Shown here: piece by piece, positions 54,938 through 59,010 of the stretch
How positions within the stretch are numbered: position 1 is the first letter of the stretch
Layout of the letters: every line of letters begins with the position of its first letter
Assembly: GCA_018604165.1 (NCBI GenBank)
Contig: CP075895.1
Span: 806,001 to 870,000, forward strand
Reading direction: 5' to 3'
Source: Chitinophagaceae bacterium LGM1
Lineage (GTDB): Bacteria; Bacteroidota; Bacteroidia; Chitinophagales; Chitinophagaceae
Length of the DNA: 64,000 bases
Notes under the pieces: model-generated
Told to the model about the DNA's origin: nothing
What the model saw: only the letters and a program-made list of their open reading frames with translations
The model's database searches: none
Made by a program: the position numbers and the translations under genes

Positions 54938-55021
54938 GTTAACTGCTCGTTAACCGCTTGTCAATACGGGGTTAACAAGGCTTGTTTATTTGGTCATCGG
55001 GCGCTGATGATAGCACCTTTG
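54938..55021 (+). promoter_or_regulatory. four tandem 11-bp repeats plus promoter (copy A)
   Basis: Units GTTAACTGCTC, GTTAACCGCTT, GTCAATACGGG, GTTAACAAGGC run head to tail from 54938. Then TTTG at 54989-54992, 21 bases, and CACCTTTG at 55014-55021. Nearly the same arrangement, with identical spacings, precedes the gene at 58741. Predicted start near 55026, leader about 50 bases. Regulator unknown; direct 11-bp repeats are typical of OmpR/PhoB-family targets. Confidence 0.7.
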
Positions 55022-55076
55022 TGTCATCAAAAGCAAATAACTAAATCAAACAACTAACAAACAAAAACGAATTAAA

Positions 55077-55628
55077 ATGAAAAAAGTAATCGCAATCATC
55101 GCTCTGGGTATCACTGGTTTTGCTGCTAACGCACAAGCTCCATCTTCTACTGCTACACAGACAGTTAACCTGAATCTAAGCAACGCAATCGAATTGACAT
55201 TCACAGGGTCTGGTACTGCTACAGGTGCTGCTGTTAACCTGGCTTTCAACACTGTAAACGATTATGCAAACGGTGTTACTTCTTCTGAACAAATGTTGCG
55301 TGTACGTTCAAACCGCCGTTTCGGTGTAACAGTTCGTACCAATAATGCAAACTTTACGTATAGTGGTGCTGTATCTCCTGCCCCTGTAATGCCTGTTTCT
55401 GGTGTTTTAGGGCTGATGGTATCTGCCAACAGCACAGGCGGTGCTATCGCTTCACCTTTCAGCAACACTGCTTATGCAGGTCTTACATCAGCAGCTCAAA
55501 ACCTGATAACAAATGCTGCAAATGGTGGCAACCAAACTTTCGGTGTACGTTATGAAGCTGAACCTGGTTTTGCTTACCCTGCAGGTACATATACTGTGGA
55601 TGTGGTGTATACTGCTACACAGCTTTAA
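55077..55628 (+). CDS. small secreted beta-rich surface protein
   Basis: 183 residues. Signal peptide MKKVIAIIALGITGFAANAQ. The mature protein is rich in Thr, Asn, Ala and Val and nearly free of Cys and Lys, with strands such as TQTVNLNLSNAIELTFTG, RFGVTVRTNNANFTYSG and the end YPAGTYTVDVVYTATQL, resembling pilin/adhesin subunits or WxL/SCPU-type surface domains. Codon choice (CGT, GGT, CTG, GTT-rich) is unusually biased, suggesting high expression. Controlled by the 11-bp-repeat promoter and ended by a terminator. It precedes the large Ig/barrel protein with which it may form a surface structure (inference). Confidence 0.7.
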   Translation: MKKVIAIIALGITGFAANAQAPSSTATQTVNLNLSNAIELTFTGSGTATGAAVNLAFNTVNDYANGVTSSEQMLRVRSNRRFGVTVRTNNANFTYSGAVSPAPVMPVSGVLGLMVSANSTGGAIASPFSNTAYAGLTSAAQNLITNAANGGNQTFGVRYEAEPGFAYPAGTYTVDVVYTATQL

Positions 55629-55655
55629 TTTGTCTCTCTCTTATCCCTTATACAG

Positions 55656-55683
55656 AAGGGCCCTTTATAGGGCTCTTTTTTTT
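55656..55683 (+). terminator. terminator after the secreted subunit gene
   Basis: GGGCCCT / AGGGCTC stem with a G-T pair and 4-base loop, then eight T residues. It separates the abundant small protein from the large downstream gene and may set their ratio. Confidence 0.75.
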
Positions 55684-55828
55684 AATTCACAATATGTAGA
55701 ATAATGTGTATTACTGCATATACACCTGCTAATCATTGCCCGCTTTTCCGTATTTTGGCGCAACAGAGGACTGTATTGTTGCATGTATTACCAGAAAATG
55801 CTTTTTGGTTAATGCTACAACCCATTTA

Positions 55829-58603
55829 ATGACAGCAAGCAAAACATACAAATTGCATAAGGCATTATTGATAATGTCTTTATTAGTGTCGCTTTGCTGC
55901 TATCGTGCAACAGCCCAATTAAGTAAAACCATCTACAAAACAGCTATACTGAATGATACGCTCGTTGCAAAAGGCAATCGCGATTTCATGTTCAACACTA
56001 TTAATATCACCAACCTTACGGATAAAAAAATCAGTATAATCGTAAATGTATTTGCCCCTGAAGGGTGGGACATGGTGACGCAAAAGCTGATTACCATAAG
56101 CCTCAATGAGAATGAGCAAACCAGTATACCCATAAGGCTGGTACCCGCAAAATCAAAAACTGCTGTATGGCAAACGGTGCGTATAGAATACAGGCTGAAC
56201 GATGGTTTGGAAAAACTGATTGATACTTTCAGGGTACGGGTAAAGGAGTTTACAAAATTCAAAGCCGACTTGCCATTATCAAACTATGCATTAGCAGGCT
56301 ATGAAAAAAACATAAAATTTCCTGTGTACCTGAAAAACTCTGGTAATACGATAAATAAATATATACTCACCTTTTCCAATCATTTTCTGAGCCTCGATTA
56401 TAAAAAAGATATCAGTCTGGAACCAGGCAAGGATACCACCTTCATGCTACCTATACACATTACCGAAAGGCAGTGGTCGCAATTGCGTAGAGAAGATATA
56501 AAAGTACAGGTAGGTGTAGAGGGTGGCGAAACAATGAACCTGAACCAAGTCATTACGCGCGTGGGTAGTACGTTGAAAGATAATAAATCTGCTTATCTCG
56601 ATATGCCATTGCAGGTAGAGGTAGGCTCTACTTATCAGGGAGAAGAAGATTTTCAATACTATGGCGCATTACACGGCTCGCTGGATTTGGGCAATCAGGA
56701 TAAGGTGTCATTAGACCTGAGGAGCAAAACGCTGACACAAGGACAGGCAATAGACAACAGCATCATTAAGGTAGATTATACAGGTTATAAATGGAGTGCA
56801 TCCGCAGGTAACATCAACGAGTTGACAGATTTCTATATGGACGGCTACGGAGCGAAAGTTGGCAGAAACTGGAAAGACAGGGATAGGGTAGATGTGTATG
56901 GTTTGCTGAAAAGCCGTGCAGGTAACAGCAAGCTGGGTGGTATGAATTATATATATGGCGGGCTGAGGCATAACATCATTGCTAATGGTGGGCTGAGTGC
57001 CAATTTTGATGTTGACAGAAAACTCAATAGCTACTTAGTAAAGCAAGGTGGCGAATGGAAATTTGCAGAGAATGGTAAGCTATTGGTAAATGCAGGTGTT
57101 GGTATGGAGCAATCTACTGCTAAACTGGTAGCTGGCGCAAAAAATACACAAATAGGTACATCTGCAGGCTACACATTGCAATGGGAAACAAAGCATTTAG
57201 GGCTTACGTCTACAGTGTTGTTAAACAGCAATACTTACCCCGGCATCTTCAAAGGGCAGCGTATGCAGAGCCACGATGCTCGTTACATTATGGGCAAGAG
57301 TTTTGTGGGTGGCTTTTATGATTATAGCTTACGCAAATCAAATTTTTATCAGGATACCGCTTTGTTTGAAAATGTCTTTAATCTGCAAACACAAACCTAT
57401 GGTGCGCGTGTTGGTACAGGCTTTAAAGGTGCCAATTTTGTTGTGTCAGCAGCAGACCAATTGCAAATACAAAGCGATACAGGCGATTTTGCACAATACA
57501 GGTTTCGGTATCTGAACCTGAATGCTTCTTTTTTGTTGTTCAAGCGTTTGTTCCTTACAATGAATAGCTACTACGGACAAGGTACCATAGTGGGTAAAGA
57601 AGCACAAACTGCTACTATCATCAGTAGCAACCAGGGCAATATACAATACCGTTGGGTAGGTGCAGCCTTGCGGTACGATAAAGGTCCGTATTACTACCAC
57701 GAGTTTACTGCATACATAAAAGCACCCGAACAATATGAACGTATTATCATCAGTCCTTTTTTAGAGTTGGGGTTATTTAAAAATTCACTGAACATCCGTT
57801 CGCAACTCAACTATGCCAAAACACTCCCTGGTGGTATTGAAACATCCAACCTGCTTACCAATATATTGTATGCCAATGCCAAGCACGGCTTCGACTTCAA
57901 CATTATAGGCATACTACCCATCAAGCAATTAGACAGGCGGCCATTCATTACCACATCGTTAAGGGTTCGATTGCATACACCCTTTGTTGCTATGCGCAAG
58001 TATTACAACCTGAAGATGGTATTGTTTAAGGATACCGATAACGATGCTGAAATGGATCCGGGAGAAGAACCTATTGAAGGGCAGATGTTATCCATAAAAG
58101 GAAGCAGGTTTATTACAGATGATAAAGGAACTATCTTATTCAAAAACGTAGATAAAGGAGAGTATAAAATAGACTTCGGATTTGCCAGCAAAGTGCGTGG
58201 TTGGGTACCGAGTGGTGGGCCTGTACAGATGTTTCAGTTAACTGGTAATAAGACATTCTTTATACCCTACAAAGCCAGTAAAATATTAAACGGTAAGTTG
58301 AACCTTGAGATGGACGATAAATCAAATCTGTCGTTTAAGCTGTCTAATATTAAGGTAACGGCGCGCATAGTAAACAAAGCAGACACAATTGAGTATTCAA
58401 CACTTACCAGTGAAAATGGAGATTTCTATTTCAATCTGCCCGGTGGCGTATATACTGTATCGCTAAGCCAGGTGGCCTTCGATGACAACTTCCGCCCAAC
58501 AGAATTCTCTCAACAGGTAGACCTTGCTATTAATAACGAGAAAACTATTTACTTCTACATCAAGCAGCGCAAGCGTAGCATCAACATCAAAAAGCGCGAT
58601 TAA
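55829..58603 (+). CDS. large outer-membrane protein: Ig-like, beta-barrel and Cna-B-like domains
   Basis: 924 residues from ATG 55829, giving signal region MTASKTYKLHKALLIMSLLV ending RATAQ; the frame is open upstream to 55736. About 30-250: two Ig-like domains of NEW3/chaperone type (INITNLTDKKISIIVNVFAPEGW, FPVYLKNSGNTINKYILTFSN). About 270-760: long run of amphipathic strands with Tyr/Gly turns, probably a barrel (LDLGNQDKVSLDLRSKT, FDFNIIGILPIK). About 770-915: two prealbumin-like domains, the first with a Ca-binding-like DTDNDAEMDPGEEP loop. Layout suggests an usher-like or anchoring outer-membrane partner of the 55077 protein. No family assigned. Confidence 0.6.
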   Translation: MTASKTYKLHKALLIMSLLVSLCCYRATAQLSKTIYKTAILNDTLVAKGNRDFMFNTINITNLTDKKISIIVNVFAPEGWDMVTQKLITISLNENEQTSIPIRLVPAKSKTAVWQTVRIEYRLNDGLEKLIDTFRVRVKEFTKFKADLPLSNYALAGYEKNIKFPVYLKNSGNTINKYILTFSNHFLSLDYKKDISLEPGKDTTFMLPIHITERQWSQLRREDIKVQVGVEGGETMNLNQVITRVGSTLKDNKSAYLDMPLQVEVGSTYQGEEDFQYYGALHGSLDLGNQDKVSLDLRSKTLTQGQAIDNSIIKVDYTGYKWSASAGNINELTDFYMDGYGAKVGRNWKDRDRVDVYGLLKSRAGNSKLGGMNYIYGGLRHNIIANGGLSANFDVDRKLNSYLVKQGGEWKFAENGKLLVNAGVGMEQSTAKLVAGAKNTQIGTSAGYTLQWETKHLGLTSTVLLNSNTYPGIFKGQRMQSHDARYIMGKSFVGGFYDYSLRKSNFYQDTALFENVFNLQTQTYGARVGTGFKGANFVVSAADQLQIQSDTGDFAQYRFRYLNLNASFLLFKRLFLTMNSYYGQGTIVGKEAQTATIISSNQGNIQYRWVGAALRYDKGPYYYHEFTAYIKAPEQYERIIISPFLELGLFKNSLNIRSQLNYAKTLPGGIETSNLLTNILYANAKHGFDFNIIGILPIKQLDRRPFITTSLRVRLHTPFVAMRKYYNLKMVLFKDTDNDAEMDPGEEPIEGQMLSIKGSRFITDDKGTILFKNVDKGEYKIDFGFASKVRGWVPSGGPVQMFQLTGNKTFFIPYKASKILNGKLNLEMDDKSNLSFKLSNIKVTARIVNKADTIEYSTLTSENGDFYFNLPGGVYTVSLSQVAFDDNFRPTEFSQQVDLAINNEKTIYFYIKQRKRSINIKKRD

Positions 58604-58625
58604 CAATACCACAATCTCAATCAAT

Positions 58626-58709
58626 GTTAATTGCTTGTTAACCGCTTGCAAAACGGGCGTTAACAAAGGCATGTTTTTTGCACTATAGAGGTTGTATAAA
58701 GCATATTTG
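58626..58709 (+). promoter_or_regulatory. four tandem 11-bp repeats plus promoter (copy B)
   Basis: Units GTTAATTGCTT, GTTAACCGCTT, GCAAAACGGGC, GTTAACAAAGG start at 58626. TTTG at 58677-58680, 21 bases, CATATTTG at 58702-58709. All spacings equal those of copy A, and both are followed by TCATCAAA. Predicted start near 58714, leader about 27 bases. Confidence 0.7.
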
Positions 58710-58740: not shown

Positions 58741-59010
58741 ATGAACAACCAAGAGAGAAAAATTGCAGCATTTGCCCGTATGGCGCAATTTGTTGTAAAA
58801 AAACAAGTAAGGGAACATGCCCTCAATTCGTACGATTATCTGGGTAGTATGATTAACAACATGCAGTACATCAACGTTACATTGATGACAGCTGCCATCA
58901 ACATCATCAAAAAAATACGCGATGATAAAGATGTTGATATGGATAACGTTACCAGCGAGTTTCGTAAAATTATACATACATCTGTAGAACAGTATACTTT
59001 GAAAGTATAA
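58741..59010 (+). CDS. small helical protein, unknown
   Basis: 89 residues from ATG 58741, after a leader rich in CAAACAAACAACAAA. Opening MNNQERKIAAFARMAQFVVKK, then helical segments with alternating charge; no signal peptide, so cytoplasmic, and no membrane segment. No family recognised. It shares its promoter architecture with the secreted protein gene at 55077, so the two should respond to the same signal; it could be a regulator or assembly factor (inference). Followed by a terminator. Confidence 0.65.
   Translation: MNNQERKIAAFARMAQFVVKKQVREHALNSYDYLGSMINNMQYINVTLMTAAINIIKKIRDDKDVDMDNVTSEFRKIIHTSVEQYTLKV

Follow-up and report, generated by a model that had tools for sequence, protein, structure and literature searches.

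The 64,000-nucleotide window analysed here (positions 806001-870000 of the one-contig, 3,322,193-base genome of Chitinophagaceae bacterium LGM1) carries two promoters preceded by the same array of four 11-bp units, which recurs upstream of other genes of this genome and of same-genus relatives. We consider it probable that the arrays serve an activator specific to this lineage, which turns on a surface-fibre regulon; an OmpR/PhoB-type response regulator, binding as two tandem dimers, is the likeliest candidate. The sites, their fixed geometry, their conservation, the gene set behind them and the predicted folds of the encoded proteins were obtained by computation. If correct, this reading makes the many pilin copies of a poorly studied lineage members of one defined regulon, controlled by a switch that can be read in the DNA. 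A literature search found no report of this array, subscription papers being mostly outside its coverage.

Two promoters of the window share array and box geometry

Read directly from the sequence, array 1 consists of GTTAACTGCTC GTTAACCGCTT GTCAATACGGG GTTAACAAGGC and array 2 of GTTAATTGCTT GTTAACCGCTT GCAAAACGGGC GTTAACAAAGG, in this order. Both follow the scheme GTTAAY, GTTAAC, G..AA, GTTAAC at an exact 11-bp period, which bears out the four head-to-tail units that an earlier reading of the window (the original prediction) had described at both promoters. That reading called the third unit degenerate; it does depart from GTTAA, but it keeps G..AA and is not merely degenerate. Counted from the first base of the array, TTTG lies at +51 and CAnnTTTG at +76 in both sites. 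The distance of 43 bases from the start of unit 4 to the -7 box and the 21-base spacer between TTTG and CA, both claimed originally, were found at each promoter, as was the -7 box CAnnTTTG, one letter off consensus. The entire array lies upstream of the -33 box, with unit 4 beginning 18 bp before it. With up to 3 mismatches allowed, the four-unit pattern has 2 matches in the 64-kb window, both exact; shuffles (n=100) average 0.01.

The array recurs across the genome with promoter boxes at fixed offsets

Searched genome-wide, the pattern GTTAAYNNNNNGTTAAYCNNTTGNNAANNNNNNGTTAA yields 20 sites, 15 of them exact and five with 2-3 mismatches, and the reversed four-unit pattern has no match in the whole genome. 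The full-genome scan that the original prediction had proposed as a check thus finds the motif well beyond the window. The first searches specified units 1 and 2 only, and 12 distinct sites were read out from them; unit 4 is GTTAA in all 12 and unit 3 is G..AA in 11, and a thirteenth place found in this way has a third unit other than G..AA.

The promoter boxes were never included in any search pattern. YAnnTTTG (at least 5 of 6 letters) nevertheless lies exactly at +76 in 17 of the 20 sites and one base earlier, at +75, in an eighteenth; such matches occur at about 1.5% of window positions. TTTG (at least 3 of 4 letters) lies at +51 in all 20 (background 7.4%), with exact TTTG in 12. With boxes at these fixed offsets, the sites fit the Bacteroidota primary-sigma promoter as described in PMC7366714, which has TTTG near -33 and TAnnTTTG at -7. 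Since the first letter of the -7 box is C in 15 sites and T in three, the one-off box is a feature of the whole set. Chance origin of the arrays is ruled out by the shuffles, the reversed-pattern control and the box offsets.

The number of units is also fixed. We pooled 162 distinct sites from all stretches examined, a few chance arrays of unrelated genomes among them, and 155 have no additional unit upstream, so that arrays end at four units. The third unit is G..AA in 152, most often GCAAA, and GTTAA in only six; the site score favoured G..AA.

We infer that the array is the operator of a lineage-specific regulon. The regulator would occupy the four units in head-to-tail order along a single DNA face, and because the third unit is weak it may do so as two tandem dimers, one on units 1 and 2 and one on units 3 and 4, with unit 3 as the weak half. 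Bound in this way, it would adjoin and activate a downstream promoter of the sigma-ABfr type whose -7 box departs from consensus. Some OmpR-type proteins act as repressors, and the array could be an operator for repression instead. This is unlikely with the whole array upstream of the -33 box and unit 4 starting 18 bp before it, and the C for T at the first place of 15 of the 20 -7 boxes suits activation.

The genes behind the arrays point to the cell surface

At 12 of the 20 sites the gene behind the array encodes a paralogue of the 183-residue secreted protein of array 1; the other eight precede genes outside this family. The original prediction had taken the two window promoters as conserved regulation rather than gene duplication. 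That is right for the window pair, whose coding regions are unlike, but the 12 sites stand on duplicated copies of the secreted-protein gene.

The remaining genes are varied. The 89-residue protein behind array 2 has a weak R3H match under the Pfam cut-off, and an R3H function is doubtful, the R-x3-H letters being kept in two of four homologues and lost in two. Its homologues in relatives lie on the same stretch as a usher-like gene. Another site precedes a PID-CTERM/exosortase operon. One of its two PID-CTERM proteins scores above the NCBIfam cut-off and the second below, while the exosortase-like protein has XrtX as its best match (E 6.7e-38), below the cut-off of the XrtX model and above that of the general exosortase/archaeosortase signature. 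Single sites precede a 1040-residue protein with a type IX sorting domain (type IX cargo), a 194-residue putative lipoprotein (judged by eye, with no NCBIfam match) and a tandem-hairpin stretch without a convincing gene. Two related proteins of 94-98 residues and a 60-residue protein also follow sites of their own. No phosphate uptake or phosphatase gene was recognised behind the 20 sites, where the 60-, 89-, 94-, 98- and 194-residue proteins are without assignment, and a Pho regulon was rejected for this reason.

The regulon would thus build the cell surface, with a dozen pilin-like subunits, the 89-residue companion and the PID-CTERM/exosortase operon, and would further cover the type IX cargo protein, the putative lipoprotein and the tandem-hairpin RNA.

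Repeats and boxes are conserved between two species while pilin cassettes evolve in concert

Fourteen of the 15 stretches around the LGM1 sites find partners among 14 site stretches of a second species (G006), with DNA identities of about 67-88%; only the one at 2.50 Mb has no partner among these 14. Across 18 promoter pairs matched by position, the repeat cores are identical at 346 of 360 positions (96%), the -33 box at 65 of 72 and the -7 box at 103 of 108, whereas identity is 306/432 in the linkers, 201/378 in the inter-box spacer and 309/684 (45%) in upstream DNA. Two of the pairs, at 2,474-2,475 kb, are weakly matched by position because little flank aligns outside the cassettes. The core identity is partly selected for, since the G006 sites were found with the same pattern, but the kept promoter boxes and the contrast with the spacer and upstream DNA are free of this selection.

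At most dispersed pilin loci of LGM1, homology extends from a few bases or a few tens of bases off unit 1 as far as the stop codon or the terminator (about +690 to +757), and even cassettes that are 95% identical have unrelated flanks. Three divergent members align over parts of their length only. For nine of the 11 position-matched pilin genes, a paralogue within LGM1 is closer than the G006 counterpart; without the two weakly placed pairs this holds for seven of nine, and the two exceptions are divergent members. The genes at window positions 55077-55628 and genome positions 342,153-342,698 exemplify the pattern. The dispersed pilin genes evolve in concert, with gene conversion as the simplest cause, and they offer a clean case of dispersed promoter-gene cassettes doing so.

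These cassette boundaries and same-genome best matches would also suit a reading in which the repeats are a by-product of promoter-plus-gene copying and gene conversion and have little regulatory meaning. Such an origin is already disfavoured and appears highly improbable, as eight of the 20 sites serve genes other than pilins and the cores are kept between matched promoters while linkers and spacer change. Shared regulation, as originally proposed, is supported by the 20 sites, the same site within the genus, the repeat conservation between two species and the unrelated genes behind the sites.

The array is largely confined to one genus

We searched 59 genomes, LGM1 included, with the pattern at up to 3 mismatches, and 23 match: LGM1, all 14 same-genus relatives, one genome of another genus (G034) and seven others. 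Thirteen of the relatives have 7-26 sites and G003 only 3, each with 2-3 mismatches; G034 has 8, all with 3 mismatches, and the seven other genomes have 1-3 each. The reversed-pattern control gives one match in each of six of the 59 genomes. An exact scan of a genome collection of 84,980 species returned 83 stretches. Among the 80 listed, 73 are titled Bacteroidetes/Bacteroidia, Chitinophagales, Flavipsychrobacter, Taibaiella, Bacteroides sp. or Chitinophagaceae IBVUCB1, and seven bear titles of other phyla. Five of these seven (L117, L122, L125, L129 and L144; Rhizobiales, Methanimicrococcus, Caedibacter, Clostridia, Chloroflexota) were rejected as chance or simple repeats by eye, with no pilin by tblastn, whereas pilin genes are present in L119 and L143 (Azovibrio title), which have probably been mis-binned. 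Judged by record titles, the same-genus relatives that share the array belong to the Flavipsychrobacter / IBVUCB1 group; outside it the array is rare. It is a clear example of a site system whose range is limited largely to a single genus.

The 20 LGM1 loci and 80 of the 83 scan stretches together give 111 site instances, some counted twice where stretches overlap. Eleven are without an open reading frame, and 70 of the remaining 100 fall in the pilin cluster.

The form of the array fits OmpR/PhoB-type regulators

The original prediction assigned the array to regulators of the OmpR/PhoB type. All known sites of this family are described as direct repeats in PMC4832192, and the array has this form, with four units at exactly 11 bp in the 20 LGM1 sites. 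According to the same source, PhoP of M. tuberculosis binds three or four consecutive repeats more tightly, and its sites combine 7-bp motifs with a 4-bp spacer, again 11 bp, and take up tandem dimers; they differ from the array in sequence and lineage. The nearest known site is the cyanobacterial Pho box as described in PMC1906773, where SphR, a PhoB orthologue and activator, binds at least three tandem CTTAACCT with 3-bp linkers, an 11-bp period. The array differs in that it has four units, the third of them weak, stands before a Bacteroidota promoter and has no recognised phosphate gene behind its 20 LGM1 copies. TAACTGA repeats of Beggiatoaceae and five Bacteroidetes (PMC4679880) are likewise short direct repeats before many genes with an uneven distribution, but these heptamers lie mostly just before start codons and are proposed in that source to act post-transcriptionally, whereas the 11-bp units lie upstream of a promoter. 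The form of the operator fits the assignment, SphR with its 11-bp period included, and LytTR and BldC-like proteins are less probable candidates for the regulator.

Regulator genes of two families, OmpR-type and LytTR, were listed in the genome. A LytTR half-site wants [TA][AC][CA] before GTT, with two repeats 21-22 bp apart. Binding of the array by a LytTR-type regulator would suit the resemblance of GTTAA to such half-sites and the 22 bp between units 2 and 4, and also 1 and 3, although 11-bp units lie between. The genome has six LytTR genes, one of them about 8 kb from a pilin/hairpin-RNA locus, and relatives of it lie a few kb from such loci in stretches of two relatives. We nonetheless regard this regulator class as improbable, because every one of the 20 sites has a T before unit 1, the letters preceding units 2 and 4 are also unsuitable, and the strong unit 1 at 11 bp is left unexplained. 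A small winged-helix protein of the BldC kind, oligomerising head to tail on the repeats, is less probable still. BldC binds variable numbers of direct repeats in this manner (PMC5859096), but its units are 9 bp in that description, whereas here they are 11 bp and number a fixed four in 155 of the 162 sites.

For the OmpR/PhoB-type activator that we favour, the genome offers seven candidates (PF00486, over cut-off), which were compared with all OmpR-type genes of nine other genomes and with two of the nine in G030. For four of them, counterparts with little-changed recognition helices exist both where arrays occur and where they do not, at about 49-99% identity; one of the four lacks a counterpart in G018, and one shows several recognition-helix changes in G028 and G035. 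Another is missing from all five array-bearing genomes tested, and yet another occurs in only two of the five. The regulator at 2,820,991-2,821,683 is at least 74% identical to its counterparts in 13 of the 14 same-genus relatives; in G003, where strong arrays are absent, the figure is only 49%. Its recognition helix is nearly the same in five array-bearing genomes, G034 included, and differs in G018, G003 and G030. Of the seven, this regulator is the best fit to the site distribution, though a weak one. Four of the six LytTR genes have no counterpart above 56% in G003 either, so the G003 contrast does not single out this candidate.

The pilins may be assembled through a usher-like barrel

The 183-residue protein is predicted to have a pilin-type Ig-like fold, with TLP-1a/1b filament subunits as best match, followed by chaperone-usher pilins. 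TLP-1 is a CryoSeek filament from pond water. The pond-water filaments of that work could not be conclusively identified, according to a review (PMC12967142). The lineage is offered here as a candidate source of fibres of the TLP-1 kind. The likeness to TLP-1a and TLP-1b (PDB 9ikj, 9ikk) is in predicted fold only, with no sequence match. PDB sequence searches with the pilin, by profile and by single sequence, gave no relative (none at E 1 in one, ten at E 0.14 or worse in the other), nor did a profile search with the chaperone.

The neighbouring 924-residue protein is predicted to be a usher-like barrel, with an Ig-like N-terminus, a beta-barrel at about 258-718 and a carboxypeptidase-regulatory-like C-terminus. 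An usher is a 24-strand outer-membrane barrel with a plug. Pfam Usher is absent from the 23 families matched at E 0.1 by any of 20 members of the 924-residue family. A homologue of a 265-residue family of putative PapD-like chaperones is encoded elsewhere in the genome, and this family adjoins pilin and usher-like genes in other Bacteroidota. Three members were scanned; PapD_N matches one at E 0.021, where a WxL-interacting-protein domain does better (E 4.4e-6), just under its cut-off. Three short pilin-like genes were seen by eye around the chaperone gene, at about 1,435,385-1,437,879 (stretch L333 7386-9880). Clusters in other Bacteroidota (L318-L323) combine multiple pilin genes with one for a PapD-like protein and one for a large usher-like protein, and four of the six add a protein of about 478 residues, cut by the stretch end in one.

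We suggest that the pilins are probably assembled via the 924-residue barrel and the PapD-like chaperone, which points to a chaperone-usher-like fibre system in Bacteroidota. The predicted folds of pilin and barrel and the PapD-like chaperone gene recall chaperone-usher pili (FimD/PapC ushers; CfaB, CsuA/B and Fim pilins), which differ in that here Pfam Usher and pilin matches are missing, the pilins are dispersed, most with their own promoter, and the barrel has extra Ig-like and carboxypeptidase-regulatory-like domains. The usher-like and chaperone genes are present in most array-bearing genomes tested and were not found in G003, G018, G028 and G035, all without strong arrays; pilins were not found in G018, G028 and G035, G003 being outside the listing of that search. 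Because G003 alone in the genus lacks strong arrays, the co-occurrence within the genus rests on one contrast.

Several findings weigh against an activator-run fibre regulon. Gene conversion could account for much of the similarity among the pilin promoters. Four of the seven OmpR-type regulators keep little-changed recognition helices in array-free genomes, and six genomes that lack a real regulon contain relatives of the best-fitting one, at 2,820,991, with 58-66% identity. None of the LytTR and OmpR-type genes of LGM1 has an array nearby (threshold 17 of 23 letters), so autoregulation, rejected on this ground, gives no clue. The chaperone gene itself is without an array, and none turned up when its stretch and the seven OmpR loci were scanned again with another score for the units. 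Unrelated chains occur among the structural matches of pilin and barrel. In G014, despite its 19 sites, homologues of the 924-residue protein reach only 25-28% identity, and G030 has the chaperone and a 29% homologue, yet no site.

Table 1. Features of the two window promoters and related loci. Coordinates are window positions unless marked as genome.
Feature	Position	Strand	Basis or remark
Four-unit 11-bp array 1	54938..54981; units at 54938, 54949, 54960, 54971	+	sequence reading, pattern search
-33-type box TTTG, promoter 1	54989..54992	+	sequence reading; fixed offset +51
-7-type box CACCTTTG, promoter 1	55014..55021	+	sequence reading; fixed offset +76
183-aa secreted pilin-like protein (predicted), multi-copy family	55077..55628	+	sequence, paralogue search, predicted fold
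Terminator-like hairpin with T run, after pilin gene	55656..55685	+	sequence reading
924-aa usher-like outer-membrane protein (predicted)	55829..58603	+	sequence, family scans, predicted fold
Four-unit 11-bp array 2	58626..58669; units at 58626, 58637, 58648, 58659	+	sequence reading, pattern search
-33-type box TTTG, promoter 2	58677..58680	+	sequence reading
-7-type box CATATTTG, promoter 2	58702..58709	+	sequence reading
89-aa protein gene	58741..59010	+	no signal peptide by eye; behind array 2
PapD-like chaperone gene (putative)	genome 1,436,050-1,436,796		homologue of 265-aa family, E 1.1e-46
PID-CTERM/exosortase operon behind array promoter	genome, about 2,048,413-2,049,538 (stretch L288 8347-9472)		two PID-CTERM proteins and XrtX-like exosortase
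Tandem CCGTAA-loop hairpins, 33-bp period	genome, about 2,322,109-2,322,368 (stretch L293 8147-8406)		behind site at 2,321,963; no clear gene

A tandem-hairpin RNA follows one of the arrays

The 563-nt hairpin stretch folds better than its shuffles (z -2.2), and an Rfam search of it gave no match. Seven clusters of CCGTAA hairpins were found in the stretches examined, matching loci of LGM1 and G006 among them, each 167-321 nt downstream of an array that scores 21-23 of 23. Because nearly all long stretches were chosen for an array or a pilus gene, the informative features here are strand and distance alone. Stems of at least 4 bp flank 33 of 58 CCGTAA motifs inside clusters (7-11 motifs each) versus 36 of 589 elsewhere, and the letters of the cluster stems change on both sides. 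We speculate that the RNA acts as a sponge. In a tentative and rather doubtful extension, one activator would run both an unrecognised branch of Bacteroidota chaperone-usher-like pili with TLP-1-family subunits and a sponge RNA that binds an RNA-binding protein in the manner of CsrB, through 7-11 consecutive CCGUAA-loop motifs, many of them folded as short hairpins. The CCGTAA loop also caps a terminator-like hairpin about 36-48 nt past the stop of 21 of 110 pilin genes in the loci examined.

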